A stretch of 19,708 nucleotides of DNA. Origin: Bacteroidales bacterium. GTDB lineage: Bacteria > Bacteroidota > Bacteroidia > Bacteroidales > UBA932. Under the pieces are notes generated by a model. The model did no database searches. It had not been told where the DNA came from and was given only the letters and a program-made list of their open reading frames with translations. A program made the position numbers and the translations under genes. The stretch is taken from positions 1 through 19,708 of the forward strand of contig JAEEQI010000022.1 in NCBI GenBank assembly GCA_016285215.1, given 5' to 3'. This document shows positions 1-19,708 of the stretch, piece by piece (position 1 is the stretch's first letter; the number at the start of each line of letters is the position of its first letter).

Positions 1-1836
1 GTGTGGATGGACAAGTTCACCCTCCGCAACCTGGAGGTGTTCCAGAGTGCCGCCGGGGCCGACGGCGTATCCCTGGTCCAGACCCTGGACAAGTGCTCCA
101 GCCCTATGGGAGCACGCCTTTTGCGCCAGTGGCTGGCTATGCCCATCCTGGATCTGAAGGAGCTGGGCGCCCGCTACGACGTTGTTCAGTACTTTACGGA
201 ACAGCCCGCCATTCTGGAAGAGACCCAGATAGACCTGGGCAAGCTGGGAGATATGGACCGTATTTTGGGCCGAATTGCCACCGGAAAGGCTTACCCACGA
301 GAGGTTATGCAGCTGGGCCGCGGCCTGTCGCTCACGGGTCCCATCAAGGCCCGCCTCGCCGGTTCCCCGGCTCTGGAAAAGCTCCTGAAGGGCCTCCATA
401 ACTGTGAAAAGCTGCAGGCAGAGATTTTCCGCGTCCTGGCCCCCGAACCTGCCATTCAGGTGGGTAAAGGCCCTGTCATCGGCCCTGGCGTAGACGCAGA
501 GCTGGACGAGCTGAGAAATCTGAGCGCCGGAGGAAAAGACTACCTTCTCCAGATGCAGCAGCGGGAGGCCGAAAGAACCGGCATTTCCTCCCTCAAAATT
601 GCCTACAACAACGTTTTTGGCTATTATATCGAGGTCCGCAACACCTTCCGCGACAAGGTTCCGCCGGAGTGGATCCGCAAGCAGACCCTGGTCAACGCAG
701 AGCGTTACATCACGGAAGAGCTCAAACAGTACGAGGAAAAGATCTTAACGGCCGAAGACCGCATCTACGCCATAGAAACCCGCCTGTACGGAGAACTCAT
801 AGCCCGCATCCAGCAGCAGATCCCGGACATCCAGACCAACAGCCGCATCCTGGCCAAGCTGGACGTGTTAGCCGGCTTTGCAGAGCAGGCCGTGGAGCGC
901 CGCTACTGCCGTCCGGATATGAACGACGGCAAGGCCCTGGACATCCGCGAAGGCCGCCATCCTGTCATTGAGACCCTGATGCCCGCCGGAGAGGAATACG
1001 TTCCCAACAGCGTGTATCTGGATACGGATAAGCAGCAGATCATCATCCTCACCGGTCCCAATATGGCCGGTAAGAGCGCCCTGCTGCGCCAGACCGCCCT
1101 CATAGTGCTTATGGCCCAGGCCGGCTCCTTTGTGCCTGCCCAGGAGGCCCACATTGGCTGGTTTGACAAACTCTTCACCCGCGTGGGCGCCACGGACAAC
1201 ATCTCCCGCGGAGAATCCACCTTTATGGTGGAGATGCTGGAGACGGCTATGATCCTGAATAACCTTTCGGCCCGTTCTCTGGTGTTGCTGGACGAGATTG
1301 GCCGCGGTACGTCCACCTACGACGGAATGTCCATCGCCCGTGGCATTGTGGAGTACATCCACGAATACGGAAAGGGCGCCAAGACGCTCTTTGCCACCCA
1401 TTATCACGAGCTCAATGACCTCGAGGGTCTCTTCCCCCGGGTCAAGAATTACCACGTTACGGTTAAGGAAGTGGGCCGCGAGGTTATCTTCCTGCGCAAG
1501 ATCAAGGAAGGCGGCACCGCCCACAGCTTCGGTATCCACGTGGCCCGTATGGCCGGTATGCCTCAGCCCGTTCTGGAAAGCGCCGAAAGGACCCTCCGCG
1601 CCCTCGAAAACAGCGAAAAACTGGACGCCATAGGCGCCCTCACGCCCGTCAAGCCCCACCAGACCAAGGCCGGCAAGGTGGAAAAGGACGGTTCTCTGCA
1701 GCTGTCTATGTTCCAGCTGGACGACCCTCTGCTGGAAAGCCTCAGAGACCGTCTCAAGGCCGCCGACCTCAACAATATGACCCCGCTGCAGGCTTTTGAC
1801 CTGCTGCGCGCTATGAAGGACGAGCTGGGAATCTAA
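1..1836 (+). CDS. mutS: DNA mismatch repair ATPase MutS, 3' part (5' end outside window)
   Basis: MutS recognises base mismatches and small loops and, through ATP-driven clamp formation, recruits MutL. The visible 611 codons start inside the core/lever domain and run to the natural stop. About 250 N-terminal residues (mismatch-reading and connector domains) lie before the window, because full-length bacterial MutS is about 850-870 residues. The first triplet, GTG, is an internal Val codon and not a start. In visible-residue numbering, the Walker A GPNMAGKS is at 352-359, the Walker B LVLLDEIGRGTS is at 427-438, and the ATPase-domain FATHYHEL is at 464-471. The C-terminal helical tail, including the NNMTPLQAFDLL segment, is intact. 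The clamp-region motif NNVFGYYIEVRN and the absence of a Smr domain mark it as MutS1 rather than MutS2. The stop lies one base from the stop of the convergent transporter gene. Confidence 0.97.
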   Translation: MWMDKFTLRNLEVFQSAAGADGVSLVQTLDKCSSPMGARLLRQWLAMPILDLKELGARYDVVQYFTEQPAILEETQIDLGKLGDMDRILGRIATGKAYPREVMQLGRGLSLTGPIKARLAGSPALEKLLKGLHNCEKLQAEIFRVLAPEPAIQVGKGPVIGPGVDAELDELRNLSAGGKDYLLQMQQREAERTGISSLKIAYNNVFGYYIEVRNTFRDKVPPEWIRKQTLVNAERYITEELKQYEEKILTAEDRIYAIETRLYGELIARIQQQIPDIQTNSRILAKLDVLAGFAEQAVERRYCRPDMNDGKALDIREGRHPVIETLMPAGEEYVPNSVYLDTDKQQIIILTGPNMAGKSALLRQTALIVLMAQAGSFVPAQEAHIGWFDKLFTRVGATDNISRGESTFMVEMLETAMILNNLSARSLVLLDEIGRGTSTYDGMSIARGIVEYIHEYGKGAKTLFATHYHELNDLEGLFPRVKNYHVTVKEVGREVIFLRKIKEGGTAHSFGIHVARMAGMPQPVLESAERTLRALENSEKLDAIGALTPVKPHQTKAGKVEKDGSLQLSMFQLDDPLLESLRDRLKAADLNNMTPLQAFDLLRAMKDELGI

Positions 1837-1837
1837 T

Positions 1838-3196
1838 CTACAAAAACAGATTGGTGAGGAACATCACCACTATGCCCGCCGGGGCCAGGTAACGCATCAG
1901 GAAATAAACCACGCCAAAGATGCGCACGTTCTTGGTGCCGCCGTTGGTGAACTCGTCCCGAACATCGGCCCCGGACATTTGCCAGCCCACAAAAACGGTG
2001 AACAGGAAGCCGCCCAGCGGCATTAGCCAGTCGGAGCACAGGTGATCCAGGAAATCAAAGAAAGTGAGCCCCAGAATAGTGGTTCCCTTGAGCGAGCCAA
2101 AGGAAAGGCTGCACAAAATACCCACAACCCAGCAGAGGAAAGCCAGCAGCAGGGTAGCTGTGCGGCGTTTCATTCCTCTTTCGTCCGTGAGGAAAGCCAC
2201 GCCCACCTCCAGCATAGAGATGGCCGAAGTTAGGGCCGCCGCCAGGATGGCCACAAAGAAAATGGAGGACGTGAGGGTACTCAGAATGGGCAGGCCTTCG
2301 CCCATTTTATTGAAAATGTACGGCAGCGTCTCAAAGACCAGGCCCGGACCGGCGCCCGGCTGCAGGCCGGCGGCAAACACGGCCGGCATCACGGCAAAAC
2401 CGGCAATGAGGGCAAAGGCAAGGTCGCTTACAGCGGTTCCCACGCCGGAAATGAAGATATTCTCTTCTTTTTTAACGTAGGAAGAATAAGTCAGGATGGT
2501 CCCCACGCCCAGCGACAGGGAGAAGAAAGCCTGTCCCAGCGCAGCGGCGTAAGCATCGGCCGTGAGTTTGGAAAAGTCGGGCTTGATCAGGTATTCCACG
2601 CCCTTGAAGGAGCCGGGAAGGGTGAGGGAATAGGCCTGGATAACCAGAATCAGGATAAACAGGGCGGGCATAGCCACCTTGGAGAACTTCTCTATGCCGT
2701 CTTTGACGCCGCCCAGCACAATGCCGGCCACCAGGGCCATAAAAGCGGTGTGCACAAAGATGGGCTGCCAGGGAGAGGAGATAAAGCGATGGAAAAACCG
2801 CGGAATTTCTTCGGCCGGAACGTCCGTAAAGCTGAAAGAGAGCGATTTGAACAGGTACTCCACGCTCCAGCCGCCCACGACGGAATAGTAGCACAGGACC
2901 AGCAGCGGAGTGAGGATGGTAAGGAGTCCCGCCCAGCTCCAGGCCGTTCCGGGGGCCAGTTTTTTCATAGCGCCAAAGGTGTCGGTACGGGCCCTTCGGC
3001 CTATGATGGATTCGGCATAAAAGATGGGAAGCGCCAGGATGATGCTGGCGGCAATGTATACCAGAATGAAGGCGGCTCCGCCATATTGCCCCATAATATA
3101 GGGGAAGCGCCAGATGTTGCCCAGGCCCACGGCGCTGCCCGCCATAGCCATAATAACGGCAAACCGGCTGCCAAAGTGCTCGCGCTTTTTGATCAT
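1838..3196 (-). CDS. Sodium-dependent NSS/SNF-family transporter, downstream paralogue
   Basis: A 452-residue polytopic inner-membrane protein of the neurotransmitter:sodium symporter family, which in bacteria (LeuT, TnaT, MhsT) couples Na+ entry to amino-acid uptake. TM1 carries the family signature: AGSAVGLGNIWRFPY at residues about 18-32, followed by GGAAF. The middle segment GQAFFSLSLGVGTILTYSSY corresponds to the TM6/7 sodium and substrate region. About 12 hydrophobic segments are visible, the last near RYLAPAGIVVMFL. The ATG overlaps the stop of the upstream paralogue by four bases (ATGA at 3193-3196), so translation is probably coupled. The start aligns with that of the paralogue (MIKKREHFGSRFAVI against MKTKRENFGGRMAVI). 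The substrate cannot be read from the sequence; an amino acid is likely from family knowledge. Confidence 0.93.
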   Translation of the reverse strand: MIKKREHFGSRFAVIMAMAGSAVGLGNIWRFPYIMGQYGGAAFILVYIAASIILALPIFYAESIIGRRARTDTFGAMKKLAPGTAWSWAGLLTILTPLLVLCYYSVVGGWSVEYLFKSLSFSFTDVPAEEIPRFFHRFISSPWQPIFVHTAFMALVAGIVLGGVKDGIEKFSKVAMPALFILILVIQAYSLTLPGSFKGVEYLIKPDFSKLTADAYAAALGQAFFSLSLGVGTILTYSSYVKKEENIFISGVGTAVSDLAFALIAGFAVMPAVFAAGLQPGAGPGLVFETLPYIFNKMGEGLPILSTLTSSIFFVAILAAALTSAISMLEVGVAFLTDERGMKRRTATLLLAFLCWVVGILCSLSFGSLKGTTILGLTFFDFLDHLCSDWLMPLGGFLFTVFVGWQMSGADVRDEFTNGGTKNVRIFGVVYFLMRYLAPAGIVVMFLTNLFL

Positions 3197-4554
3197 AGGA
3201 CAGAGGAGAGGATGAGCACCAGGATGCCGATGGGGGCCACATAGCGCATCAGGAACAGGAGGGGCCGGAAGAAGCGGGCGTTCCTGCGCAGGACGCCGCC
3301 GTTGGTGAGTTCACGGAAGAGAGCGCTGCGCGGCATTACCCAGCCCGCCAGAATCACGGAAACGAGGCTGCCCAGCACCATCAGCACATTGGAGGCCGTG
3401 CTGTCGGCAAAATCAAAGAGATTGAGGCCAAACAGCTTGACCTGGGAAAGCGGGCCGAAGGAGAGGCTGCAAAGGGCGCCAAAGGCTCCGCAGAGCACAA
3501 ACAGCAGGACACACGCCCAGCCTCGTCTCATACCCCGCTCTTCCGTAAGATAGGCCACGCCCACCTCCAGAAGGGAAATGGAGGAGGTAAGGGCCGCAAT
3601 GAAGATGGCCAGGAAGAAGAGGATGGACGCAACGGTGCTGAGAATGGGGGCGTGCTGTGCCAGGCTGGAGAAAATGAAGGGAAGCGTATCAAAAATGAGG
3701 GTGGGACCCGTTCCGGGAGCAATGCCGGCCGAGAAAACGGCCGGAATGATGGCGAATCCCGCCAAAAGGGCAAACAGAAGGTCGCTCACCGCCGTTCCTA
3801 CGCCGGCCACCACCAGATTCTCGCTCTTTTTCACATAGGAAGAATAGGTGATGATGATGCCGGTACCCAGCGACAGGGAGAAGAACGACTGCCCCAGGGC
3901 GTCAATGAAGGTATGGGCCGTCACTTTGGAGAAATCGGGTTTGAGCAGATACTCTACCCCTTTGAAAGCACCGGGAAGGGTGAGCGAATAAACCACCAGG
4001 AAGACAATGAGGACAAACAGCGTGGGAATGCTCCATTTGCAGAATTTCTCAATGCCGTCCTTGACCCCAAAGGCCACCACTGCTACGGTTATACCCATAA
4101 AAGCCAGATGAAACGCCAGGGGAAGCCAGGGTCTGGCAATAAAGCGCTCAAAGCCGCCGGAGAGCTGGTCCGGCGTGGCGTGGATGAAATCCAGGCGGCA
4201 GGCCTGTACCAGGTAGTCTATGCTCCAGCCGCCCACAACAGAGTAGTAGGACACAATCCAAAGCGGGGTAATGACCATCAAGATGCCAAACATATGACCC
4301 ACCCGGCCCGGAACCAGGAAGCCTACGGCCGCCCGGCAATTGGCCTGGCTGCTGCGCCCTATGGCACTTTCGGCCAGAAAGATGGGCAAAGACAGGATGA
4401 GGGTGAAGGCAATGTAGATGAGGATGAAGGCGGCTCCTCCATTTTCTCCTACCAGGTAAGGAAATCTCCAGATATTACCCAGCCCGATGGCGCTACCGGC
4501 AAAAGCGGCGATGACGGCCATACGGCCGCCGAAGTTTTCTCGCTTGGTTTTCAT
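3193..4554 (-). CDS. Sodium-dependent NSS/SNF-family transporter, upstream paralogue
   Basis: A 453-residue NSS-family symporter closely related to the next gene on the strand; aligned by eye they share long identical blocks such as GLGNIWRFPY, VKDGIEKF, YSLTLPG, FKGVEYL and ITYSSYVKK. TM1 has AGSAIGLGNIWRFPY at about residues 18-32, and the Na+-site region GQSFFSLSLGTG follows. I chose ATG 4554 because it matches the paralogue's N-terminus. The open frame continues upstream to 4626, but that would run through the promoter region and overlap the divergent thyA start. A -7 box on this strand lies at 4596-4603, giving a leader of about 40 bases. The two genes look like a tandem duplication; divergent residues in the extracellular loops suggest different substrates, which is inference only. 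Confidence 0.93.
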   Translation of the reverse strand: MKTKRENFGGRMAVIAAFAGSAIGLGNIWRFPYLVGENGGAAFILIYIAFTLILSLPIFLAESAIGRSSQANCRAAVGFLVPGRVGHMFGILMVITPLWIVSYYSVVGGWSIDYLVQACRLDFIHATPDQLSGGFERFIARPWLPLAFHLAFMGITVAVVAFGVKDGIEKFCKWSIPTLFVLIVFLVVYSLTLPGAFKGVEYLLKPDFSKVTAHTFIDALGQSFFSLSLGTGIIITYSSYVKKSENLVVAGVGTAVSDLLFALLAGFAIIPAVFSAGIAPGTGPTLIFDTLPFIFSSLAQHAPILSTVASILFFLAIFIAALTSSISLLEVGVAYLTEERGMRRGWACVLLFVLCGAFGALCSLSFGPLSQVKLFGLNLFDFADSTASNVLMVLGSLVSVILAGWVMPRSALFRELTNGGVLRRNARFFRPLLFLMRYVAPIGILVLILSSVL

Positions 4555-4595
4555 AAAGGTCGTTTTCCGGGGCTTTGTTGATACACTACTGCTTG

Positions 4596-4603
4596 CAAAG
4601 ATA
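4596..4603 (-). promoter_or_regulatory. Bacteroidota -7 promoter box for the NSS transporter pair
   Basis: Read on the minus strand this is TATCTTTGC, a full match to the Bacteroidota sigma consensus TAnnTTTG(C), 42 bases from the transporter ATG. No clear TTTG is seen at -33. It lies back to back with the thyA box, with 12 bases between them. Confidence 0.65.
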
Positions 4604-4615
4604 ATGATTTTTGCG

Positions 4616-4623
4616 TAAGTTTG
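4616..4623 (+). promoter_or_regulatory. Bacteroidota -7 promoter box for thyA-folA-galM
   Basis: TAAGTTTG, followed by CA, matches TAnnTTTG. A partial -33 box, CTTG, sits at 4592-4595 with a 20-base spacer. Only five bases separate the box from the thyA ATG at 4629, so the transcript should be leaderless or nearly so. The ATG itself forms one of only three CATG words in the window. Confidence 0.65.
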
Positions 4624-4628
4624 CATAC

Positions 4629-5423
4629 ATGCAACAGTATCTAGACCTCCTGCGCCATATTCGCGCCAACGGCGCTATGAAAGAAGACCGTACCGGTACC
4701 GGCACGCAAAGCGTGTTCGGCTACCAGATGCGCTTTAACCTGGCCGACGGATTCCCCCTCCTCACCACCAAGAAGGTGCACCTCAAATCCATTATCTACG
4801 AGCTTCTGTGGTTCATTTCCGGCAATACCAACGTGCGGTATCTGCAGGAACACGGCGTCACCATCTGGGACGAGTGGGCCGATGAAAACGGAGAACTGGG
4901 CCCGGTTTACGGACACCAGTGGCGCTCCTGGCCGGCACCCGACGGCCGCTCCATCGATCAGCTGTCGCAGGTGATCGACCTCATCAAGAACAACCCCAAT
5001 TCCCGCCGGATGCTGGTCTGCGCCTGGAACCCCGGAGAGGTGGACAAGATGGCCCTGCCGCCCTGCCACTGCCTGTTCCAGTTCTATGTGGCCAACGGTA
5101 AACTTTCCTGCCAGCTGTACCAGCGCAGCGCAGACGTGTTCCTGGGCGTACCCTTCAACATTGCCTCCTATGCGCTCCTGACCCTGATGCTGGCCCAGGT
5201 CTGCGGGCTTGAGCCCGGTGAATTCATTCACACCACCGGAGACACCCACCTCTACCGCAACCATTTTGAGCAGGTGGCCCTGCAGCTCTCCCGTGAGCCC
5301 CGTCCGCTCCCCAAGATGCACCTGAACCCGGACATCAAGTCCCTGTACGATTTCAAATACGAAGATTTCACTCTGGAAGGTTACGACCCGTGGCCTGCCA
5401 TCAAAGCACCTGTAGCCGTATAA
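4629..5423 (+). CDS. thyA: Thymidylate synthase
   Basis: Converts dUMP to dTMP using 5,10-methylenetetrahydrofolate as methyl donor and reductant, yielding dihydrofolate. The ATG at 4629 gives 264 residues, exactly the length of the E. coli enzyme, and alignment is nearly gap-free. A TTG seven codons further upstream (4611) lies inside the promoter and is rejected. The catalytic cysteine is C146 in [12 protein letters not shown], the same number as in E. coli. The phosphate-binding DRTGTGT is near residue 20, [21 protein letters not shown] surrounds the dUMP-binding arginine, and GDTHLYRNH follows. The C-terminus IKAPVAV matches the conserved end whose last residue closes the active site. It is the first gene of an operon with folA one base downstream, which recycles its dihydrofolate product. 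Confidence 0.98.
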
Positions 5424-5424
5424 T

Positions 5425-5919
5425 ATGGAAAAATGCCTGATAGTAGCCGTTGCCGATAACTGGGGCATCGGAATCAAGAACCAACTTCCCTGGCACATTG
5501 CGGAAGACCTCAAGTATTTCAAGGAAACCACCAAGGGTTTCCCGGTCATTATGGGCCGCACCACCTACTTCTCCCTGCCTTTCCGTCCCCTGAAGGGCAG
5601 AAAGAACATCGTGCTCAACCTGGGCGGAGACCCCATTCCGGAAGTCACCTGCGTGTACTCCTTTGACGAGGCGTATAAAGAGGCCGAAGTCACCGGGGCC
5701 CAAAAGTGCTTCGTAATGGGCGGCGCCTCCGTGTACCGGGCCGCTATGCCCGATATGGACAAGCTATACATCACCCACGTGCACACCGTGCTGCCCGATG
5801 CAGACGTCTTCTTCCCGGAGATTGACCCCGCCGTCTGGGAGCGTGTGAGCACCTCCGAGACCCACACGGATCCGGAGACCGGCTTCACCTTTGAGTTTGT
5901 GATTTACAAAAAGAAATAA
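5425..5919 (+). CDS. folA: Dihydrofolate reductase
   Basis: Reduces dihydrofolate to tetrahydrofolate with NADPH and is the classical trimethoprim target. The 164-residue length is typical of chromosomal bacterial enzymes. The N-terminal VAVADNWGIGIKNQLPWHIAEDL holds the loop tryptophan W23 and the catalytic acid D28, equivalent to E. coli W22 and D27. The NADPH-binding PVIMGRTTY follows at about residue 40, and the second cofactor motif FVMGGASVYRAAMP lies at about 91-104. The C-terminal strand FEFVIYKKK closes the fold. The ATG begins one base after the thyA stop, so the two are co-transcribed and probably translationally coupled. This makes metabolic sense because ThyA is the main consumer of reduced folate. 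No substitution that I would call a resistance change is evident by eye. Confidence 0.97.
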   Translation: MEKCLIVAVADNWGIGIKNQLPWHIAEDLKYFKETTKGFPVIMGRTTYFSLPFRPLKGRKNIVLNLGGDPIPEVTCVYSFDEAYKEAEVTGAQKCFVMGGASVYRAAMPDMDKLYITHVHTVLPDADVFFPEIDPAVWERVSTSETHTDPETGFTFEFVIYKKK

Positions 5920-5922
5920 CCT

Positions 5923-6969
5923 ATGACCATTACCAAAGAATCCTGGGGCCAGGCTCCCGACGGAAAGGAGATTCTCCTTTACACGCTCAAAAACGCCTCC
6001 GGCGCGTATGTTCAGCTCACCAACATTGGAGCCGGCATCGTTTCCATTGTGGTACCGGACAAAAACGGCCGGCTGGGAGACGTTGCCCTGGGTTACAAGA
6101 ACCCCCTGGATTACTTTGGAGACGGTCCTTACTCCGGCAAGGTGCCCGGCCGCTATGCCAACCGCATTGCCAAGGGCAAGTTTACCCTGGACGGAGTGGA
6201 ATACACCCTTCCCGTCAACAACGGCCCCAACCACCTGCACGGCGGCCCTCTGGGCTTCCACAGCCAGGTTTGGGACAGCCGCATTGACGGTGAGGCCGTA
6301 GAGTTCCTCTATTATTCCGAAGACGGAGAAGAAGGCTATCCCGGCAACCTCAAGACCGTGGCCCACTACACCTGGGCAGAGGACAACTCCCTCAAGCTCA
6401 TCCTCACGGCCGAAACGGACAAGCCCACGGTGGTGAACCTCACCAACCACGTCTACTTTAACCTGGACGGAGAGGCCTCCGGCAGCGTTCTCAATCACAA
6501 ACTGGAGCTCAACGCCTCCCAGTACCTTCCTACGGACGAGAACCTCATCCCCCTGGGAGACCCCGAGGACGTAGCCGGAACGCCTATGGACTTTGTGGAG
6601 GCCAAAACCCTGGGCCGGGATATCAAGGCCAATTTCCCCGCCCTCAAATACGGCAAGGGTTACGACAACTGCTATCTCATTGACGGCTATATGCCCGGTC
6701 AGCTTTCCGAGGCGGCCCAGCTGTGGGGTGCCAAAAGCGGCCGTCACCTGACGGTTCTTACCACCCAGCCCGCCGTTCAGATCTATGCCGGCTGCTGGCT
6801 CAAGGGTTGTCCCACGGGAAAAACCGGAAAGGAGTATGAAGACTATGACGGCGTGGCCATCGAGTGCCAGCACTGCCCCGATTCCCCCAACCGGCCGCAG
6901 TATCCCAGCACCGTTCTCCGTCCCGGAGAGGTGATGGAAGAAGCCATTATCTGGGTATTTGAAGCCTGA
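5923..6969 (+). CDS. galM: Aldose 1-epimerase (galactose mutarotase)
   Basis: Interconverts the alpha and beta anomers of galactose (and glucose), supplying alpha-galactose for GalK in the Leloir pathway. The 348-residue protein shows the family's active-site residues in order: R77 in PGRYANRI, H106 in NHLHGG, H176 in NLTNHVYFNL (general acid), D248 in GYDNCY, and the catalytic base E314 in VAIECQHCPDSPN. No signal peptide is seen, so it is predicted cytoplasmic. The ATG follows the folA stop by three bases, making it the third gene of the thyA operon rather than a neighbour of galK about 5 kb away. Its TGA directly abuts the stop of the convergent lipoprotein gene. Confidence 0.95.
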   Translation: MTITKESWGQAPDGKEILLYTLKNASGAYVQLTNIGAGIVSIVVPDKNGRLGDVALGYKNPLDYFGDGPYSGKVPGRYANRIAKGKFTLDGVEYTLPVNNGPNHLHGGPLGFHSQVWDSRIDGEAVEFLYYSEDGEEGYPGNLKTVAHYTWAEDNSLKLILTAETDKPTVVNLTNHVYFNLDGEASGSVLNHKLELNASQYLPTDENLIPLGDPEDVAGTPMDFVEAKTLGRDIKANFPALKYGKGYDNCYLIDGYMPGQLSEAAQLWGAKSGRHLTVLTTQPAVQIYAGCWLKGCPTGKTGKEYEDYDGVAIECQHCPDSPNRPQYPSTVLRPGEVMEEAIIWVFEA

Positions 6970-7926
6970 TTACAAAGACTCCATTACCTCCAGGGCCAGT
7001 TGGGCCGGAGCATCTTTTAAAACCACCCTCTTGTCCTTGTCCAGCAGGTACAGGGACGGAACGGCGCGCACGGCGTAGATGCGGTCCGTGCGGATGGAGA
7101 AGGTGGGGTCGTAGCCGTTGATCCAGGTCTTGGGATAGCTGTCCCGGCGCTGTTTCCAAAGCTCTATATCCTCGTCAATATATACATCGACCACCTTGAG
7201 GCGGCCGGATTCGATAAGGTAAGTAATCTCTTCGGACGCGCTCATCTGGTCCATAATCTCGCGGCAGGCTTTGCAGTCCGGGTTGCCAAAGATCAGGAGG
7301 AGCCATTCGGCCTTGATGCCGTAGAGGGTTCTGGTGCGGCCGGCGGTGTCTACAAAGCGGAAATCGGCCGCCGGGGTGCCTGTACGGTTGAGGGAACAGA
7401 CCTGCTTTTCCCAGGCGTACTGGCTCTTTTCCTCGTCCGGAACCAACTCTGAGGCCGCCAGACGGGACACAAACGGCAGATAAAGGTCCTCACTCCGCAC
7501 CGGGGAGTTGGGATCGTAAAAATAGCGCGAAATAAGGGCCGAAGTCTCCGCAAACACATTTCCCTCCGGCTGGGCCTTTTGGAAGGCTTCCAGGCGATTA
7601 TAGGCCGCATCCATAGCCACCTGGCCGTCCGGCAGCGGAAGCTGCTGCAGGATGGAGGCGAAAAGTCCCACCTGTTCTTCCAGTTTTTCGACCTGAACGC
7701 CGTTTACCGTAAGGGAGTCGCAGGTATAAAGCTTGTCCGGCTGCGTGAACCGGTCCCAGAAATGCTGCGCAATCCAGGTGGCCCGTTCTCCGGGCTCGGT
7801 AATCATTACGGGAACTTCGGCCTTGGGAAAATCGCGGGTGGCGGGCGCTGCGGGTGCCGCCTTCTTTTTGGTGCCGCAAGACAGCGTCACACAAATCATT
7901 AATAAGATGCCTAATCGTCTGTTCAT
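6970..7926 (-). CDS. DUF5106/thioredoxin-like lipoprotein
   Basis: A 318-residue protein with an N-terminal lipoprotein signal (hydrophobic run then TLSC, acylated cysteine at about 17) and an AP-rich linker. A helical DUF5106-like region follows (about 45-165, with TWIAQHFWDRF). A thioredoxin-like domain comes last, with a CKAC redox pair at C218 and C221 in FGNPDCKACREIMDQM, and a cis-proline-type AVPSLYLLD near the end. This architecture is widespread in Bacteroidota, where such lipoproteins face the periplasm or outer membrane and are presumed thiol-disulfide oxidoreductases; the substrate is unknown. ATG 7926 is chosen over an in-frame TTG at 7935 because it follows the -7 box by six bases and begins the signal peptide directly. 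It is divergent from the large barrel protein. The family name is from memory of the pattern, not a search. Confidence 0.8.
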   Translation of the reverse strand: MNRRLGILLMICVTLSCGTKKKAAPAAPATRDFPKAEVPVMITEPGERATWIAQHFWDRFTQPDKLYTCDSLTVNGVQVEKLEEQVGLFASILQQLPLPDGQVAMDAAYNRLEAFQKAQPEGNVFAETSALISRYFYDPNSPVRSEDLYLPFVSRLAASELVPDEEKSQYAWEKQVCSLNRTGTPAADFRFVDTAGRTRTLYGIKAEWLLLIFGNPDCKACREIMDQMSASEEITYLIESGRLKVVDVYIDEDIELWKQRRDSYPKTWINGYDPTFSIRTDRIYAVRAVPSLYLLDKDKRVVLKDAPAQLALEVMESL

Positions 7927-7932
7927 ACTACG

Positions 7933-7940
7933 CAAAATTA
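7933..7940 (-). promoter_or_regulatory. Bacteroidota -7 promoter box for the thioredoxin-like lipoprotein
   Basis: On the minus strand this reads TAATTTTGC, a full TAnnTTTG match, ending six bases before the ATG at 7926. The transcript should be leaderless or have only a few leader bases. No good -33 TTTG is seen upstream. It lies 12 bases from the opposing box. Confidence 0.6.
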
Positions 7941-7952
7941 CGGTTTTTTCGT

Positions 7953-7960: not shown

Positions 7961-7968
7961 CACAGCTT

Positions 7969-12723: not shown

Positions 12724-12752
12724 ATCTAGTGTTATTTATGATGTCTATCATA

Positions 12753-12760
12753 CAAATATA
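12753..12760 (-). promoter_or_regulatory. Bacteroidota -7 promoter box for galK
   Basis: The minus strand reads TATATTTG, a full TAnnTTTG match, leaving a 29-base A-rich leader to the galK ATG. No convincing -33 TTTG is visible at the expected spacing, and I see no clear operator palindrome near it. Confidence 0.6.
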
Positions 12761-12886
12761 CGGAATTTTTCAAATACCCGTTAAAATCGGTCGTTCTCCA
12801 CCACAACACAAAAAAAGATTTTTATTTGAGGAAAAACGATGCAAAAAGTATTTCTGTTTTTGATCGCGGGTTAACAAAACATCCTT

Positions 12887-12894
12887 TATCTTTG
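12887..12894 (+). promoter_or_regulatory. Bacteroidota -7 promoter box for the exported nuclease-like gene
   Basis: TATCTTTG matches TAnnTTTG and ends only three bases before the ATG at 12898, so transcription should begin at or within a few bases of the start codon. A TTTG at 12859-12862 is 24 bases upstream, rather far for a -33 box. The ATG forms one of the three CATG words in the window. Confidence 0.6.
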
Positions 12895-12897
12895 GAC

Positions 12898-13851
12898 ATG
12901 AACGTTTTAGCTATCTTTTGGGCGTCGCTGCTGCTCTGCCTTTCGTCCCCTTCGGACTCCCTCCGGGTTATGTTTTGGAACCTCGAAAACTTCTTTGACT
13001 ACAAGAATGACTCCCTGAGTACCTCGGACCGGGAGTTCTCGGCCCGGGGAGACCGTCGCTGGACCCCCAAACGGTTCCGGACCAAGTGCAATTCCATAGC
13101 AAAGGGCATCCTTTGGGCCGGATCCCGGGAAGGAGGGCTTCCGGATGCCATTGGTCTGGCCGAAGTGGAGAACGCCTTCGCCCTCCGGCGCCTGCTCCAG
13201 GGTACGGCCCTTCGCAAGCTGGACTATCAGATAGTGCATTTTGAGTCGCCGGATCCCCGTGGGATAGACGTGGCACTGCTGTACCGGCGCAGCCGTCTGA
13301 GGCTGGTGGATGCCAAGCCGTGCCGTCTCCGGGGCCCGGATTCGGCCCTTATGGCCACGCGGGATATCCTCCTGGCGCGTTTTCAGAGGGCCGATGGGCG
13401 CGAAATAGCCCTTCTGGTGAACCATCATCCGTCCAAATACGGGGGTCTTCTGGAGTCGGAGCCCAAACGGCGGATAGCGGTGGAAAGGCTGCGCTTCCTG
13501 GCCGATTCCCTGCAGGCGCTGGGAGTGAAAGACCTGGTGGCTATGGGGGATTTCAACGATACGCCCGCCAATCCCGTCTACAGGCTCCTGGAGCCCACGC
13601 TTCATAATTTGGCAACACCTCTATACCAAAAAAGTCAAGGCACCATCAAATACGACGGTGCCTGGGAACTTATAGATATGTATTTTGTGTCGCAAGGACT
13701 GGATACTTCTGTTATGAAAATCCTCCAAATTCCTTTTCTGATGACCAAAGACGGCAGTCACGCCGGTACCAAACCCCTCAGAACCTATTCGGGACCCCGT
13801 TATCTGGGCGGCGTCTCCGATCACTGTCCTATCTGGCTAGACGTTAAATAG
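12898..13851 (+). CDS. Exported endonuclease/exonuclease/phosphatase-family protein
   Basis: A 317-residue member of the Mg2+-dependent EEP superfamily (DNase I, exonuclease III, phosphatases). Motifs in order: VMFWNLENFFD with N28, LAEVEN with the metal-binding E89, RGIDVALLYR, VNHHPSK with H176-H177, MGDFNDTP with D218 and N220, and SDHCPIW with the catalytic H309. All key residues are present, so an active hydrolase is expected. ATG 12898 is chosen because it follows a -7 box and starts a hydrophobic N-terminus (about residues 3-17) that looks like a signal peptide, although it lacks the usual Lys or Arg. A TTG-initiated extension to 12826 would run through the promoter. Whether it acts on nucleic acid or phosphoesters is undetermined. 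Its 3' end overlaps ychF by 15 bases, tail to tail. Confidence 0.88.
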   Translation: MNVLAIFWASLLLCLSSPSDSLRVMFWNLENFFDYKNDSLSTSDREFSARGDRRWTPKRFRTKCNSIAKGILWAGSREGGLPDAIGLAEVENAFALRRLLQGTALRKLDYQIVHFESPDPRGIDVALLYRRSRLRLVDAKPCRLRGPDSALMATRDILLARFQRADGREIALLVNHHPSKYGGLLESEPKRRIAVERLRFLADSLQALGVKDLVAMGDFNDTPANPVYRLLEPTLHNLATPLYQKSQGTIKYDGAWELIDMYFVSQGLDTSVMKILQIPFLMTKDGSHAGTKPLRTYSGPRYLGGVSDHCPIWLDVK

Positions 13852-14940
13852 GAAATGCATTATGTCGCCGTCCTGGACAACATAATCTTTACCTTCAATA
13901 CCCATTTTACCGGCGGCACGGACGGCTGCTTCGGTCTTGTACTGGACAAAGTCCTCGTACTTGATGACCTCGGCCCGGATGAAGCCGCGCTCGAAGTCCG
14001 TGTGGATGACACCGGCGGCGCGGGGAGCCTTGTCCCCGGCCACGATGGTCCAGGCGCGGCATTCGTCGGCTCCGGCGGTGAAGAAGGTACGGAGGCCCAG
14101 CAGGCTGTAGGCGCTCTGGATCAGGCGCACCACGCCGGACTCGGAAAGACCCATCTCCTCCAGGAACATCTGGCGGTCGTCGTAGTCTTCAATCTCGGCA
14201 ATTTCGGCCTCGGTTTTGGCGGCAATCACTAGAATCTCTGCGTTTTCGGAGGCCACGGCGGCACGGACGGCCTCCACATAGGCGTTTCCGGTGGCGGCAG
14301 AGCCCTCATCCACGTTGCACACGTACATCACGGGCTTGTTGGTGAGAAGGTAGAGGTCCTTGGCCATCTGCTCTTCTTCGGCGTTTTCCGGTACCACGGT
14401 GCGGCAGCACTGGCCCTTCAGAAGGGCCTCGCGGTAACGGAGCAGCAGGTTGAGCAGCTTCTTGGCTTCCTTGTCGCCTCCGGTGGTGGCCATCTTTTCC
14501 ACCTTCTTGATGCGGTTTTCTACGGTTTCCAGGTCTTTGATCTGGAGTTCAGTATCTACCACCTCTTTGTCACGGACGGGGTCCACAGAGCCGTCTACGT
14601 GCACTATATTGCCGTCGTCAAAGCAGCGCAGCACGTGCAGGATGGCATCGCACTCGCGGATGTTGGCCAGGAATTGGTTGCCCAGGCCCTCACCCTTGGA
14701 GGCGCCCTTTACCAGACCGGCAATGTCCACGATTTCTACCGTGGCCGGAATGGTACGCTTGGGCTGACAAATCTCAGTAAGCACTTCCAGGCGCTTATCG
14801 GGCACGTTGGTGGAACCCACATTGGGGTCTATGGTGCAAAAAGGGAAGTTGGCGCTCTGGGCCTTGCCAGAGCTTACGCAATTAAACAAAGTAGACTTGC
14901 CCACGTTGGGCAAGCCTACGATTCCACACTTTAAAGACAT
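13837..14940 (-). CDS. ychF: Redox-regulated ATPase/GTPase YchF (Obg-like)
   Basis: A 367-residue YchF/OLA1-type P-loop NTPase that binds ribosomes; family members prefer ATP. The length equals the usual 363-370. The G1 loop GLPNVGKST is at 9-17, the G3 DIAGLVKGA is near 72-80, and the altered G4 motif NVDE is at 209-212, where Ras-like GTPases have NKxD. The C-terminal TGS domain, about 280-367, contains the characteristic [14 protein letters not shown] and ends near [10 protein letters not shown]. It lies 17 bases downstream of the PpiD-like gene on the same strand, so the two are probably co-transcribed. The last 15 bases overlap the convergent exported nuclease-like gene. Confidence 0.97.
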
Positions 14941-14957
14941 AAAGTCATCAGTTTCTA

Positions 14958-17039
14958 TTAATAGAAGCGGGCGCGATTGTCCTTGACCGTCTTATCCATC
15001 ATGATGGGAAGGATCATCTGGTCGTAGTAGGAGGCGAAGCGGGCCTGGGCGGCCTTGGCATCGTCCTCGGTGTAGTAGGAACCCATCTCACGACCGTTGA
15101 CCTGGAACACATAAGCGCCCATCAGACCGGCCACGGGACCGTTCATCTTGCCTTCCTTGGCGGCAGCCACGGCACCGATGAAAGCGGGCTCGGTGGCAGG
15201 GGCCGAAGAGGTGGAGAAGGTGACGTCCGTAATGTTGGAAACGGGGGTGCCCACTTTCTCAGCCACAGCCTCCAGGTTGGTGAGACCCTCAATCTGGGCA
15301 GCCACATCCTGGGCGTGCTTCTGAGCGTACTTTTCACGGTAAACCTGGGAACGGATGGTCTCGTAAACCTCGTTCATAGGGGCGATACCCTCCTTGTGAG
15401 CCTTCTCAACGGCAATCACAAAGTAGTACTTGTTGTCCACGGGGATCACATCGGAAACCTTTCCGGGCTTGTTGTTGAAGGCCCAGCGGGTTACTTCCTT
15501 GGCGTGGGAGATGGCGCCATAGCTGTCCGTAGCTTCGTTGATATTGAGGCTGCGGGCGTAGATGCCGGTGGTGTCGCAAACGGTCTTGAAGTTTTCCAGT
15601 TTGCCCTGGGAACGAACGGCCAGCAGACGGGCCTGCTCGGAGATGGCGCGCTCAGTCTCCTTGGAGATGGCGGCTTCCTTCTCGAAGATGGCCACCTTCT
15701 TCTTGGCAACGGGAGCAGTAGCCTTAACCACTTCCACCACGTGGGAGCCATACTGGGTGTTCAGAACGAAGGGAACGCCCACTTTGGCTTCCAGAACGGG
15801 CTCGAAGCCCTTGATCATAATATTCTTGGTCATCCAACCCAGATTACCCATCTCACCGTCCTGGGCGTTGCCCTTGTCGGCGGAATAGAGGGTGGCCAGG
15901 GTGGAGAAGTTGTTCTTGTTCACAACGCCCAGGAGGCTGTCGGCCTGGTGCTTGGCGTTTTCACCCACCAGCATAATGTGACGGACATACACGGAATCCG
16001 GCAGGGAGGCGCTGTCCATAATACGGGCGGCGTAGAAAGTTTCACCGGACTGGTAGACGGGGGAAACACCCTCCTTGTTGGCGCTTACGAAAGCGTCAAT
16101 GTCTGCGTTCACGGTGCGGAGTTCACCGGCCTTGTACCAGGTATCTTCCCACTTGCGGTCGGAATTCTTCTGGAGGAAGGCGCGCATATTATCGGTGGTG
16201 GAGAACTCGTCGTACAGACCTACGAACTTGGCGTTGCTGTTGGCAATGTCTTCCTGGGAAGGCTTGAGCTCATAAACGGCATAGCGGATGTCGCGGTTGG
16301 CTACCTGACGGAAACCGTCCTTGTGGTTGTTGTAGAACTTCTCAACCTCGGCCTTGGTAACCACAACGGTGGAATCCTCCGGGAAGAAGGTGCCGGGGAC
16401 CATTACGAAGTCAACGTTGGCGGTGGTGTTGTTCTCCTCGATGGCGCGCTTGCGCTCAAGGGCGTTCACATAGGTGCCGGCGTTGAACAGGCCGATGTAT
16501 TTCTCGTTGAAACGGTTGGAGCGAACGGCGGTCTGGAGGTAGTCGCGGATCTGACGATAGGCTTCGCTGGTCTCTGCGCCTTCCATAAGCTCGCGGACGC
16601 GGTCGATGGAGAAGGAACCGTCCTCGTCATAGAAGCCGTAGAAGCTGGACACAACCGGGGAGATGTTGTCACCCACAAACATATCAATCTGTTCCTGCTG
16701 ACCCACGTGGATGCCGGCCTTCTCGATGGTGGGGATTACCAGATAACGGTCCACCATATTCTGCCAGGACATTTCACGAAGCTGGTTCTGGTCTTCTTCG
16801 GAAGAAGAGGAGGCGCCGGAAATCATTTTGCGGACCTCGTCAAACTGACGAACCTCGTTGTCAAACTGCAGGTAAGAGATAGATTTCCCATTGATTTTGC
16901 CGACATCGTTCTTGGAAGAAGTAGACTGGATGGTCTGGATGATGTCGGACGGGTTCACAAGGAAGAGTAAAAGACCGAAGGCAATGATGAGGGATGCACC
17001 AATGCCAAACTTAGTTCTGATGGTCTCAAGAGCTGCCAT
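14958..17039 (-). CDS. ppiD: Membrane-anchored SurA/PpiD-type peptidyl-prolyl isomerase and chaperone
   Basis: A 693-residue periplasmic folding factor held in the inner membrane by one N-terminal helix (about 13-29, IGASLIIAFGLLLFLV). A SurA-N-like helical chaperone region (about 40-250, starting GKINGKSISYLQFDNEV) precedes a parvulin domain at roughly 345-440. The parvulin domain has VYVRHIML, MGNLGWM around W402, FEPVLEAKVG and YGSHVVEVV. A second, more degenerate parvulin-like region may occupy 470-580. The length and order match the PpiD-like proteins common in Bacteroidota, which help outer-membrane and secreted proteins fold. A -7 box lies in the 99-base gap upstream, and ychF follows after 17 bases. 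The symbol is assigned by architecture; orthology with E. coli PpiD is likely but not exact. Confidence 0.9.
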   Translation of the reverse strand: MAALETIRTKFGIGASLIIAFGLLLFLVNPSDIIQTIQSTSSKNDVGKINGKSISYLQFDNEVRQFDEVRKMISGASSSSEEDQNQLREMSWQNMVDRYLVIPTIEKAGIHVGQQEQIDMFVGDNISPVVSSFYGFYDEDGSFSIDRVRELMEGAETSEAYRQIRDYLQTAVRSNRFNEKYIGLFNAGTYVNALERKRAIEENNTTANVDFVMVPGTFFPEDSTVVVTKAEVEKFYNNHKDGFRQVANRDIRYAVYELKPSQEDIANSNAKFVGLYDEFSTTDNMRAFLQKNSDRKWEDTWYKAGELRTVNADIDAFVSANKEGVSPVYQSGETFYAARIMDSASLPDSVYVRHIMLVGENAKHQADSLLGVVNKNNFSTLATLYSADKGNAQDGEMGNLGWMTKNIMIKGFEPVLEAKVGVPFVLNTQYGSHVVEVVKATAPVAKKKVAIFEKEAAISKETERAISEQARLLAVRSQGKLENFKTVCDTTGIYARSLNINEATDSYGAISHAKEVTRWAFNNKPGKVSDVIPVDNKYYFVIAVEKAHKEGIAPMNEVYETIRSQVYREKYAQKHAQDVAAQIEGLTNLEAVAEKVGTPVSNITDVTFSTSSAPATEPAFIGAVAAAKEGKMNGPVAGLMGAYVFQVNGREMGSYYTEDDAKAAQARFASYYDQMILPIMMDKTVKDNRARFY

Positions 17040-17109
17040 TTTGTTATTATTTTTGTATTATTTCCTTATTTTTCCTCTGCTATGCCCAAAAAGGTAAGCA
17101 TAAGGGCTG

Positions 17110-17117
17110 CAAAGTTA
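17110..17117 (-). promoter_or_regulatory. Bacteroidota -7 promoter box for the ppiD-ychF pair
   Basis: The minus strand reads TAACTTTGCA, a full match to TAnnTTTG(C), in the 99-base gap after lptC. It implies a leader of roughly 65 bases and a separate promoter for ppiD-ychF. No -33 TTTG is clear. The leader is A-rich near the start codon. Confidence 0.6.
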
Positions 17118-17138
17118 CTAATTTTCTTCTAAATACCA

Positions 17139-17765
17139 CTATTTTTTTAACAGAGGGCCAATAAAATTCACGGAGTCAATAATCACACGGGTGCTGTCGC
17201 TCTCGATGATGAACTCATTGTCGAAAGGTTTGAGCAGAATGGCGTTGCGGGCCATTTCGTCCGAGCGCATCCCGTATCCCTGCATATAACCGGAGGGCGA
17301 AGACATCTTTACGTAGCAGTCGGTCCAGATTTCCTCCTTGGCACCGTCCCAGTAGAGGGTGTCGGTTTCCATAGTCTCCTGCTTGATGATGTTCTTTACC
17401 ACCACGTTGCCAAAGGCGCTCCAGAGCTCCCCTTTTCCGCGAAGACTCTTGTCGTGGCGGGCCTTGCGGGCCACAATGGTGGTTTCCAGCAGGCCTTCCT
17501 CCGAATAACCGTAAATCTTAATACCCTTGGGAAAGAGGTCAAAAGTCACTGTATCGTGCTCAAAAACCTCCATTCTGGGCGTTTCTACGCGCATTTTGAG
17601 CTTACCGTTCTCCGTGCGCACAAAGAACATATCGTCCACCGTCTGGACCGGCGTCTGGTCCAGATCCAGTTTCTCGGCTTCTGTCAGGTTTCCCTTACAG
17701 GAATAAACGACGAAAGCAAGCGCCAGAGCGCTTGCTATTGTCTTCAATATGTTGCGAGAGTTCAC
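17139..17765 (-). CDS. lptC: LPS export protein LptC, lipoprotein form
   Basis: LptC is the periplasmic bridge component of the LptB2FGC-A machine that moves LPS to the outer membrane. The 208-residue protein starts with a GTG that shares its first base region with the preceding TAG (TAGTG), so translation is coupled to the TPR gene. The N-terminus has a hydrophobic run and a lipobox VVYSC with C23 as the likely lipidated residue, common for Bacteroidota LptC, whereas the E. coli protein has a TM helix. The beta-jellyroll features PRMEVFEHDTVTFDLFPKGI, KARHDKSLRGKGELW and GNVVVKN resemble the LptC/OstA fold. There is no other lpt gene in the window; neighbours are an outer-membrane barrel, a TPR protein and a PpiD-like chaperone. 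Confidence 0.87.
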   Translation of the reverse strand: MNSRNILKTIASALALAFVVYSCKGNLTEAEKLDLDQTPVQTVDDMFFVRTENGKLKMRVETPRMEVFEHDTVTFDLFPKGIKIYGYSEEGLLETTIVARKARHDKSLRGKGELWSAFGNVVVKNIIKQETMETDTLYWDGAKEEIWTDCYVKMSSPSGYMQGYGMRSDEMARNAILLKPFDNEFIIESDSTRVIIDSVNFIGPLLKK

Positions 17766-19099
17766 TAGCGGCCGCTGACACGCACCGTGGTGAAGGCGGA
17801 CATACCGCCGCAGGAAACGGTGTAGGACTGACCTGCGCTGAGGTCGTACATAAAGATCTCAGATGCCGGCGGATAGTACTTGGTAACGTTGGCGATAGCG
17901 GTGGAGGCGTCATCGGCAATGGAAGGATCTGCGTTACGGGCCTTCTGATAGTAGTCCGTAGCGGCCCAGTAGCGGGCGTACTTGTCCACTTCACCGGAGC
18001 AGGAAGCCGAAGCCCAGAGGTTACCCAGGATCATATAGGCCTTTCCGGCATAACCGTAGTCCATATCCACGGCCTTCTTGGCGCACTCGCTGGCCTTGCT
18101 GCGCATATTGTTCTTGTAAGCGAAGGCGGCGAGCTCATAGTAGTACTGAGCGTCGGTGGCCTCGTCGGACTCGTCGGAGGCGATGGCCTCTTCCAGGTAA
18201 CGGCAGGCGTCAGCAACATTGTCGCGGGCGGCGTTCAGACGGTACAGACCGTAGGCGCTGCGATAGGAAGGATCCAGCTTGTACATAGCGGTCACGGCCT
18301 TGAGATAGAGGTCGTTGGAGGCGCAGTCTTCGGCGGAGTTCATAAGCTTCACAATGTTGGAAACCAGAGCCAGGTTGTTGGGATCGGCCTCGAAACGGGG
18401 GCCGAAGATGGCGAGGAGGTTCTCGCAGGAAGCGACCTTGCTCTCTGCAAAGATGGACTCGATGGCGGCCTTTACCTTGGCGATGTCTTCTTTCTCGGCG
18501 TCATTCTTGGGGGTAGCACCCTCGATGTTGGCGGTAACCTTGTCGTAGGTGGCAATCACATCGTCTGCGCTGAGCTTGTTCTCGCGATACAGGTTAATGG
18601 CAGACTGGAGCAGGTTTACCTGCAGGGGGCCATTGGCCTGGGAGCCCAACTCGTCCACAATCTCGCCCAGGTTCTTGTAAGCGAAGGCGGCGTCGTTGCT
18701 GCGGTAGTTGATGATGTGCTGACCCTTGTTATTCAGAATGGACGTTCTGTTCTTGGGGTAGGCGGCCATACGCTGATCCTGGAGGGTGAGGATGGTGTCT
18801 ACAATGGCGCTCCGGGCGGCAGCATCCTTGGTCTGGTTGTACAGACGGGTCATAAGGGTGGTACCGTGGATGAACATATTCTGGGAGGCCGTAGGAGGAC
18901 ATACGGCATAAGCCTTACGCCAGTTGGGCAGGGCAGAGTCGTAGTTCTTCTGCTTGTAGTACTCCTGGTAATAGTTCAGGTAGAGCACGCAGTCCGCGCT
19001 GTCTTTGCCGTGGCCAAAACGGGAGCCACCCTGTGCAAAGGCATTCTGACCGGAGAAAACGGCCATAGCGGCGAAGAAAATCAGAGCTAATTTTTTCAT
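17765..19099 (-). CDS. Exported tetratricopeptide-repeat protein
   Basis: A 444-residue alpha-helical secreted protein. Residues 1-22 are a signal peptide (MKKLALIFFAAMAVFSGQNAFA, cleaved before QGG). The mature part starts with a conserved YYQEYYKQKNYDSALPNWRKAY segment and contains several TPR-like helix pairs rich in Ala and Tyr at about 160-400, such as YYYELAAFAYKNNMRSKASECAKKAV. A short beta-rich C-terminal tail ends YTVSCGGMSAFTTVRVSGR. The role is unknown; in Bacteroidota similar proteins lie beside an outer-membrane barrel gene and lptC, suggesting a scaffold in envelope assembly. The stop overlaps the lptC GTG by one base. The ATG lies 45 bases downstream of the barrel gene, with no promoter seen between. 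Confidence 0.82.
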   Translation of the reverse strand: MKKLALIFFAAMAVFSGQNAFAQGGSRFGHGKDSADCVLYLNYYQEYYKQKNYDSALPNWRKAYAVCPPTASQNMFIHGTTLMTRLYNQTKDAAARSAIVDTILTLQDQRMAAYPKNRTSILNNKGQHIINYRSNDAAFAYKNLGEIVDELGSQANGPLQVNLLQSAINLYRENKLSADDVIATYDKVTANIEGATPKNDAEKEDIAKVKAAIESIFAESKVASCENLLAIFGPRFEADPNNLALVSNIVKLMNSAEDCASNDLYLKAVTAMYKLDPSYRSAYGLYRLNAARDNVADACRYLEEAIASDESDEATDAQYYYELAAFAYKNNMRSKASECAKKAVDMDYGYAGKAYMILGNLWASASCSGEVDKYARYWAATDYYQKARNADPSIADDASTAIANVTKYYPPASEIFMYDLSAGQSYTVSCGGMSAFTTVRVSGR

Positions 19100-19144
19100 A
19101 TTTACTGTTTTTTGAATTTGTCTAATTTCAATCCCCGTGCCATA

Positions 19145-19708
19145 CTATTGATAAGCACGCTTCTGGAACCAGATGTCAAAGATATTGAATCCGAGGTTAA
19201 AACCAAAATAATTCTCCTTTACCTGGGAGGTGGCCAGGCCGCGTCTTCCAAACTCAAATCCTACGCTGAGGCCATTGTACCAGCGGAAAACGGGAAGGGT
19301 CATACCCAAAGTAACACCCAAAGAATTCACGTGGGCGCCGTCTACGGTGTAGTACGACTGATCATAATAAGCTCCTACGCGATAAGTGCAGCGGCGAAGG
19401 AAATAACGGATATCGTTTCTGTTGGGGGTGAACTCCACGCCGGCCCGGACGGACTGTCCCACCGACGGGGCAAACACCACGTCTCCCACGTTGGAGAAAC
19501 CCTTTACTTGATCTATTTTACTGTTGCTCCAGTTGGTGCGGGTGTAGTCTATCTCGGCCAGGAAGCTGTCTCCCTTGCGGTAGCTTACGCCCACTCCCAG
19601 CTCGTCTCCCATACGGAGACCCTCGCTGTTGAGATCCTTTACATCGGCCACTTTGTCGTAGCTTCCCAGTTCGCGGTAATGGACGGTGTGACCCCGCATA
19701 GCGGAAGA
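19145..19708 (-). CDS. Outer-membrane beta-barrel protein, 3' part (5' end outside window)
   Basis: The frame is open to the right edge, giving 187 visible C-terminal residues; the first Met at 19699 is internal. The sequence alternates aromatic and polar residues in strand-sized blocks (SVRAGVEFTP, YRVGAYYDQSYY, VNSLGVTLGMTLPVF, LSVGFEFGRRG, YFGFNLGFNIFDIWFQK) and ends with a basic-aromatic tail. This is the pattern of a Bacteroidota outer-membrane barrel, similar to a conserved FadL/OmpP1-like family whose gene often precedes a TPR protein and lptC. Loops with NRNDIRYFLRR are probably periplasmic turns. Substrate and function cannot be deduced from this part. It is probably the first visible gene of the operon running into the TPR protein and lptC. 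Confidence 0.78.
   Translation of the reverse strand, partial: SSAMRGHTVHYRELGSYDKVADVKDLNSEGLRMGDELGVGVSYRKGDSFLAEIDYTRTNWSNSKIDQVKGFSNVGDVVFAPSVGQSVRAGVEFTPNRNDIRYFLRRCTYRVGAYYDQSYYTVDGAHVNSLGVTLGMTLPVFRWYNGLSVGFEFGRRGLATSQVKENYFGFNLGFNIFDIWFQKRAYQ

Follow-up and report, generated by a model that had tools for sequence, protein, structure and literature searches.

Which force has almost removed the tetranucleotide CATG from an otherwise ordinary piece of Bacteroidales chromosome? The question is raised by a stretch of 19,708 nucleotides, contig JAEEQI010000022.1 (positions 1-19708; this whole stretch is called the window below), in which CATG occurs only three times (Table 1). A previous reading by a model that saw little more than the letters (the sequence-only reading) had noticed this scarcity and ascribed it to long exposure to a restriction-modification (R-M) system of NlaIII type. 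We analysed the window together with genomes and loci of its relatives, whose handles begin with G and L, respectively. The analysis makes it probable that the window lineage has been shaped, since its split from the lineage of the locus L001, by a CATG-cutting Type II R-M system, most likely of the NlaIII/ICEA type, in which a nuclease gene stands between two methyltransferase genes (M1-R-M2).

CATG is nearly absent from the window

The near-absence of CATG was confirmed as real and strong. Dinucleotide shuffles of the window (n = 200) contained 74.5 CATG sites on average (standard deviation 8.0), matching the figure of about 75 given by the sequence-only reading, and all 200 held at least three. 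A maximal-order Markov model predicts 67.3 sites, with CATG having the lowest z-score among the 256 tetranucleotides. When synonymous codons were permuted such that every protein and the codon usage of each of the 16 genes were preserved, 60.4 ± 5.0 sites were obtained, and none of the 500 trials gave fewer than 47. A second permutation, holding amino acid and junction dinucleotide fixed, yielded 66.8 ± 4.5 (minimum 55 in 500). The number observed within coding sequence is one; two of the three surviving sites span start codons in our own gene list. Permutations of this kind had been proposed as a check by the sequence-only reading, whose claim withstands them, and its smaller counts are likewise accurate: seven GATC and five GTAC in the first 2 kb, and, within the mutS fragment, 19 Met codons of which none follows a codon ending in C and 14 follow one ending in T.

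Chance or base composition, for which we found no point in favour, is refuted by the shuffles and codon permutations and deserves practically no credence. The relatives argue the same way. We fetched 80 loci with YchF, mostly from draft Bacteroidales genomes and many titled as rumen or other gut samples; 78 of them lie above the observed/expected CATG ratio of the window (0.04), while L011 and L064 have no CATG at all. The other 15 palindromes of the window are found at 0.64-1.17 of expectation, with the exception of CTAG (5 vs 26.5 expected), which is similarly low in most of the 80 loci.

The target is a DNA word rather than a codon context

Sites were sorted by coding phase (hyphens mark codon boundaries); for these counts, as for those of His codons in whole loci, open reading frames (ORFs) were picked greedily in each locus, longest first, giving slight differences from counts based on our own gene list. 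In the window, NNC-ATG occurs twice against 56.8 expected from the use of C before other A-starting codons, and CAT-G does not occur against 16.7 expected. NCA-TG is also absent, at an expectation (0.5) too small for the window to inform. All 37 His codons that precede a G are CAC and none is CAT, as compared with 44 CAT among 96 elsewhere (p = 1.7e-8). For the third phase, relatives provide observed/expected counts of 0/8.0 (G020), 0/8.7 (G031) and 1/14.1 (G010). Depletion thus affects all three phases in G020 and G010 and clearly two in the window, which identifies the DNA word, and not the codon context, as the target.

A translational effect disfavouring NNC before Met codons would suit the observation that the lost sites are mostly NNC-ATG. 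It is refuted by the phase independence, CAT-G having been lost too, and we regard it as having hardly any chance of being correct. Evidence from outside the reading frame agrees: in depleted genomes C is scarce before ATG starts (G010 0/25, G305 0/24, G200 1/35; 10/44 in the non-depleted G001), and few CATG lie outside ORFs (3 in 5324 nt for G010 and 2 in 5114 nt for G305; 47 in 12438 nt for G001). Among depleted genomes G200 differs, with CAT-G near normal (21 vs 23.9 expected) and NNC-ATG low (34 vs 148.0).

Most polarised losses postdate the split from a sister locus

The locus closest to the window among the relatives, L001, is 88% identical to it across 15.8 kb; its 20.9 kb contain 65 CATG, or 0.75 of expectation. 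For its genome G001, represented by L001 and four more stretches, the count is 431 vs 519.5 expected (0.83). Within the aligned 15.8 kb, L001 has 49 CATG sites and the window retains three; 36 of the 46 changed sites read CATA or TATG. Where C-ending codons of L001 precede a conserved ATG, the window has kept the C in 0 of 26 cases, compared with 342 of 385 for control codons before other A-starting codons (p = 7e-23). By our own arithmetic from these counts, retention is at most about 0.11 (95% upper bound), which means that CATG sites disappeared at a rate at least some 18-fold that of matched sites, a difference that calls for selection.

When the differences are polarised by outgroups, 26 sites read as losses on the window's side and 5 as gains on that of L001; 13 give a tie or no vote, and 2 show multiple changes. 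Where the outgroups vote, most losses therefore appear to postdate the split from the 88%-identical sister. This narrows the sequence-only reading: strong avoidance is borne out, and the "long exposure" it had proposed is not required for most polarised losses.

Could the sites have decayed by mutation alone? Deamination of a methylated cytosine would convert CATG to TATG or CATA without any selection, and several observations have this direction. Changes before ATG are C to T in 24 of the 26 matched cases. At fourfold sites, the non-C bases T/G/A number 38/17/8 before ATG vs 86/82/60 elsewhere (p = 0.004), and changes from C are to T in 16/18 cases before ATG vs 17/29 otherwise (p = 0.047). 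Deamination alone nevertheless fails, because the CAT-G phase has been lost to the same extent, and there the His codons require a T to C change at another base; NCA-TG has also gone in G020. In addition, transitions are the commonest synonymous route in any case, and a C5 methyltransferase was detected in only 2 of the 11 genomes searched (10 depleted genomes and G001). We therefore consider purely mutational loss very unlikely. The T surplus at fourfold sites is compatible with a purge whose pace was set by the supply of mutations.

Repeated depletion in related lineages

CATG depletion is recurrent in the relatives of the window. A tree built on YchF from the window and 40 of the 80 loci (41 rows) places the window and L001 as sisters (support 100/98), with L002 (ratio 0.33) branching next. 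The label "under 0.35" requires seven changes on this tree, at least six of which are forced by well-supported branches; shuffled labels need 7.5 on average. Parsimony does not separate two purges, in the window and L002 lineages, from one older purge followed by recovery in L001, whereas site-by-site polarity favours two purges.

The frequency of depletion was estimated in genomes lacking a match to the Pfam family ICEA (PF05315), a nuclease family that takes its name from Helicobacter pylori iceA. We drew 52 such genomes from G017-G072 and took the first contig of each. Five were dropped (four consisting entirely of N, one with an expectation below 15), leaving 47 with a median ratio of 0.83, eight of them below 0.35. 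G036, G039, G055 and G063 had been kept out of the draw owing to matches to relatives of M2, while G038, which also matches, stayed in; G036, G039 and G055 were sampled for CATG separately.

Carriers of an NlaIII/ICEA operon are depleted in CATG

Whole-genome searches placed ICEA above the cut-off in seven genomes: G010, G200, G305, G619, G783, G834 and G972. All seven are poor in CATG, at ratios of 0.00-0.29 that include the value of the window. Observed/expected counts are 8/210.6 (G010), 64/220.7 (G200), 16/252.0 (G305), 0/51.8 (G619, from two pieces overlapping by 1.1 kb), 6/95.3 (G783), 2/96.3 (G834) and 0/20.8 (G972, locus L064). G783 and G834 are congeneric with G001, the genome of the sister locus, and are the two ICEA carriers among 300 genomes of that genus; they are depleted like the window.

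Ratios below 0.35 are found in 6/6 carriers vs 8/47 sampled ICEA-negative genomes (p = 1.3e-4). Among 66 genomes not selected for ICEA, the only two carriers are the two with the lowest ratios and the sole loci with zero CATG (p = 4.7e-4); these 66 of the 80 loci comprise 16 picked before and 50 picked after the ratios were known, the remaining 14 having ratios of 0.57-1.21. When the sets are joined and two genomes present in both are counted once (n = 111), ICEA occurs in two of the four genomes under 0.1 and in 0 of the 107 others (p = 9.8e-4). Matches below the cut-off, which were not counted, come from less CATG-poor loci (observed/expected 6/12.4 in G129, 6/10.6 in G443, 6/6.2 in G502). 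Relatives of M2, at no more than 43% identity, occur in 18 further genomes; 12 were sampled, and the 11 with letters all have at least 0.66 of expectation.

In the five operons free of contig-end cuts the gene order is M1 (PF01555), nuclease R and M2 (D12). M1 is supported by Pfam in G200, G305, G619, G834 and G972, and M2 by the D12 family in G010, G305, G619, G834 and G972. The M2 of G200 is 71% identical to that of G010, and the M2 of G783, truncated at a contig end, was assigned by reading the ORF. To judge from homology and from the depletion in 7/7 carriers, these operons would cut and methylate CATG. ICEA homologues are abundant (2019 proteins pass an E-value of 0.001). Comparison of R with plasmids and phages gave one weak plasmid match (Priestia) and no phage match, comparison of M2 with viral contigs gave no match, and no solved structure was found by sequence for either protein.

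Two of the operons contain an additional ORF. In G200 a 379-residue ORF (L083 349-1488), with a sub-threshold match to EVE, lies between the nuclease and the D12 methyltransferase. In G834 a 94-residue ORF without a Pfam match (L286 1177-1461) occupies the interval between nuclease and M2, and reads like a remnant of the former. The operons of G305 (L084) and G783 (L287) adjoin a gene we take to be pdxJ-like, followed in G305 by what is presumably a nadK-like gene, and may share one common insertion site.

Depleted genomes without a detected system

Near-complete avoidance is also seen where no such system was found. G020 and G065 have less than 0.1 of expected CATG and no ICEA match; in the 0.77 Mb of G020 that were fetched, 172 CATG occur vs 2314 expected. 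In the whole draft of G020 (19 contigs), ICEA, D12, PF01555 and C5 methyltransferase all went without a match, and when M1, R and M2 were compared with the translated sequence of the fetched part, one chance-level match was returned (E = 0.40). The remaining CATG of G020 (L121, L244-L282) is clustered in islands, e.g. L256 1373-9346, L258 494-14667 and L264 15731-19064, and CATG density in this genome may mark recently acquired DNA. At L255 1191-1251, although the genome is depleted elsewhere, six CATG follow one another at intervals of exactly 12 bases and look like a short tandem repeat.

These genomes suggest an alternative in which the agent directed at CATG, in the window as well as in G020, G065, G017 and G002, lies outside the NlaIII/ICEA family. 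In 10 depleted ICEA-negative genomes neither a D12 methyltransferase (PF02086) nor the operon's M1 was found (0/10 each), as this alternative would have it; PF02086 is present in 4/12 non-depleted controls, three of which (G038, G255 and G310) were previously known carriers. PF01555 occurs in 3/10 (a search confined to depleted genomes) and C5 methyltransferase (PF00145) in 2/10 but not in G001. Eco57I-type matches (PF07669) are the most frequent, at 8/10, but are present in non-depleted G001 too. A search for MT-A70 returned 0/18 with no control matching either, and is hence uninformative. No candidate common to the depleted ICEA-negative genomes was found in these searches, which did not extend to PF02384 and other methyltransferase classes. 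Genes of two genomes were considered and rejected as the agent. The Eco57I-type genes of G020 (contigs C15 and C4) contain CATG themselves and so look recently acquired. In G027 a stretch free of CATG holds a PF01555 gene that seems to belong to a phage, its neighbours being presumably akin to ParB and terminase.

The missing systems may alternatively have been lost lately or have dropped out of the assemblies. Drop-out is plausible, since a contig end interrupts the operon in two of the seven carriers (G010 and G783) and the assemblies are drafts of untold completeness. On balance a different kind of agent seems unlikely to us, if clearly less so than mutational loss. More specifically, some Bacteroidales could purge CATG under an agent that is not a classical R-M system and that comes without a recognisable CATG methyltransferase or ICEA; that the window belongs with them strikes us as a rather doubtful proposition.

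A restriction system as the probable cause

In orthodox Type II systems, incomplete methylation puts every recognition site at risk. If the window lineage has, since its split from that of L001, harboured a Type II system cutting unmethylated CATG, each such site would be a potential chromosome break, and a mutation destroying the site while leaving the protein unchanged would therefore be favoured. The changes seen are synonymous, and most losses took a cheap route of this kind: the C-to-T transition from NNC-ATG to NNT-ATG and, for His before G, CAC in place of CAT. The system would still be present in the lineage, or have been lost very recently. The relatives suggest that the window's genome encodes the enzyme, homology suggests its specificity, and self-cutting would be the cost that drives the purge. 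As the sequence-only reading stated, the enzyme is not encoded within the window: no NlaIII/ICEA (PF05315) nuclease gene is present in its 19,708 nucleotides.

Several observations weigh against this explanation. The ICEA nuclease is rare in assembled genomes, being found in 1/16 (G010), 3/299 (G010, G200 and G305), 2/393 (G010 and G619), 2/300 (G783 and G834) and 1/50 (G972), with G010 present in three of these sets, and the closest relatives examined, G001 and G002, have no ICEA match. Depletion below 0.35 without ICEA is commoner than with it, judging by the eight of 47 sampled genomes, and only half of the joined-set genomes below 0.1 are carriers. G020, with no detected system, has 51 CATG vs 1950 expected in the 672 kb outside its CATG-rich islands. 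In the sister itself, the L001 genes aligned to the window use CAT for 2/23 His codons before G vs 22/48 elsewhere, a scarcity that would fit an older purge partly reversed in L001, and L113, one of the four other G001 stretches, is somewhat low in C before ATG (p = 0.0024). Across the whole L001 locus there is no bias in CAT before G (26/71 vs 48/101, p = 0.16).

We retain a CATG-cutting Type II system as the probable cause. The NlaIII-type pressure invoked by the sequence-only reading gains support from the seven depleted carriers, including the two from the genus of G001; its enzyme family is likely rather than certain, because G020 and G065 avoid CATG almost completely with no such system found.

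Genes of the window and further word biases

The window encodes ordinary chromosomal genes, assigned by Pfam search (16 genes in our list; Table 1), and a tRNA search of it found none.

Table 1. Surviving CATG sites and genes of the window
Feature	Coordinates	Strand	Remarks
mutS 3' part (MutS III, IV, V)	1..1836	+	Pfam
SNF-family sodium symporter	1838..3196	-	Pfam; L001 has CATG at 2021, 2213, 2669, 2738, 2966, 3092, 3143 and 3149, all replaced in the window
Two SNF-family symporter genes in tandem	1838-4554	-	
Surviving CATG 1	4628..4631		Spans the assigned thyA start (ATG at 4629); shared with L001 and L010
Surviving CATG 2	12897..12900		Spans the assigned start of the PF19580 phosphatase-like gene; shared with L001
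Endonuclease/exonuclease/phosphatase-like gene (PF19580)			Assigned start ATG at 12898
ychF GTPase	13837..14940	-	Query for fetching the 80 relatives' loci and for the tree
SurA/PPIase-like gene	14958..17039	-	CATA at 15816, 15972, 16584 and 16680, where several outgroups have CATG
Surviving CATG 3	15000..15003		Ile-Met (ATC-ATG) inside the SurA-like gene; shared with L001 and L006
LptC-like and TPR-like genes	17139..19099	-	CATA at 17370, 17628, 17849 and 18284, where several outgroups have CATG; Pfam match of the TPR-like protein sub-threshold
thyA			
Dihydrofolate reductase			
Aldose epimerase			
Thioredoxin-like DUF5106 protein			
CpXC protein			
Galactokinase			
1005-residue protein			No Pfam match
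Last ORF			No Pfam match

Other words show biases of their own. CTAA/TTAG (13 vs 52.6 expected) and CTGA/TCAG (100 vs 153.9) are depleted in the window too, which may come in part from the avoidance of in-frame stop codons. Among the 80 loci, GATC falls below 0.5 of expectation in many, and GGCC does so in all five titled Paludibacteraceae (L044, L045, L054, L057 and L077). In L064 (1-11410; the Prevotellaceae draft G972, which carries the ICEA operon), CATG, GATC, AGCT, GGCC and CTAG are all zero and CCGG is at 0.12; the joint avoidance of several palindromes suggests several restriction systems.

Significance and comparison with known systems

Both the kind of phenomenon and the mechanism are already in print, and the window is a new case of them. 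Added here are the dating, by means of a sister, of an almost complete purge, the demonstration that this purge acts on the DNA word, its recurrence, and its close association with an NlaIII-type operon in Bacteroidales; in the open-access literature we found no title or abstract opening on CATG avoidance in this order. The window and L001 constitute a natural experiment, in which one of two 88%-identical sisters has near-normal CATG and the other almost none, so that selection by a restriction system on core genes can be quantified directly, both in strength and in route (0/26 vs 342/385 codons retained). Among 66 genomes, the two zero-CATG loci belong to the two ICEA carriers, which suggests CATG counts as a predictor: counting the word can point to restriction systems hidden in draft genomes.

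According to Rusinov et al. 2015 (PMC4687349), recognition sites are avoided in 47.9% of cases for orthodox Type II systems. Where the system itself is lacking, avoidance is given as 43.3% if it occurs in a different strain and 18.4% if it occurs only in a different species of the genus, and is read there as the trace of lost R-M systems; the word CATG is absent from the main text of that paper. The window resembles these cases in that a 4-bp palindrome is depleted in the host chromosome while the system is found in relatives, and in that avoidance is seen without a system too. It differs in the near-completeness of the loss, which is dated against an 88%-identical sister retaining the sites, in the separation of coding phases, and in a clade composed mostly of draft Bacteroidales genomes.

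For the nuclease, PMC2749054 puts the identity between the iceA1 product and NlaIII at 52%, and a title in its references describes hpyIM as the gene of a CATG-specific methyltransferase. PMC3261200 gives CTAG for NlaIII, while a title in its own references gives CATG for iceA1. Like NlaIII and iceA1-hpyIM, the ICEA nuclease of the relatives has a D12 methyltransferase close by. Unlike them, the Bacteroidales operons add a methyltransferase of PF01555 type upstream of the nuclease, resulting in the M1-R-M2 arrangement.

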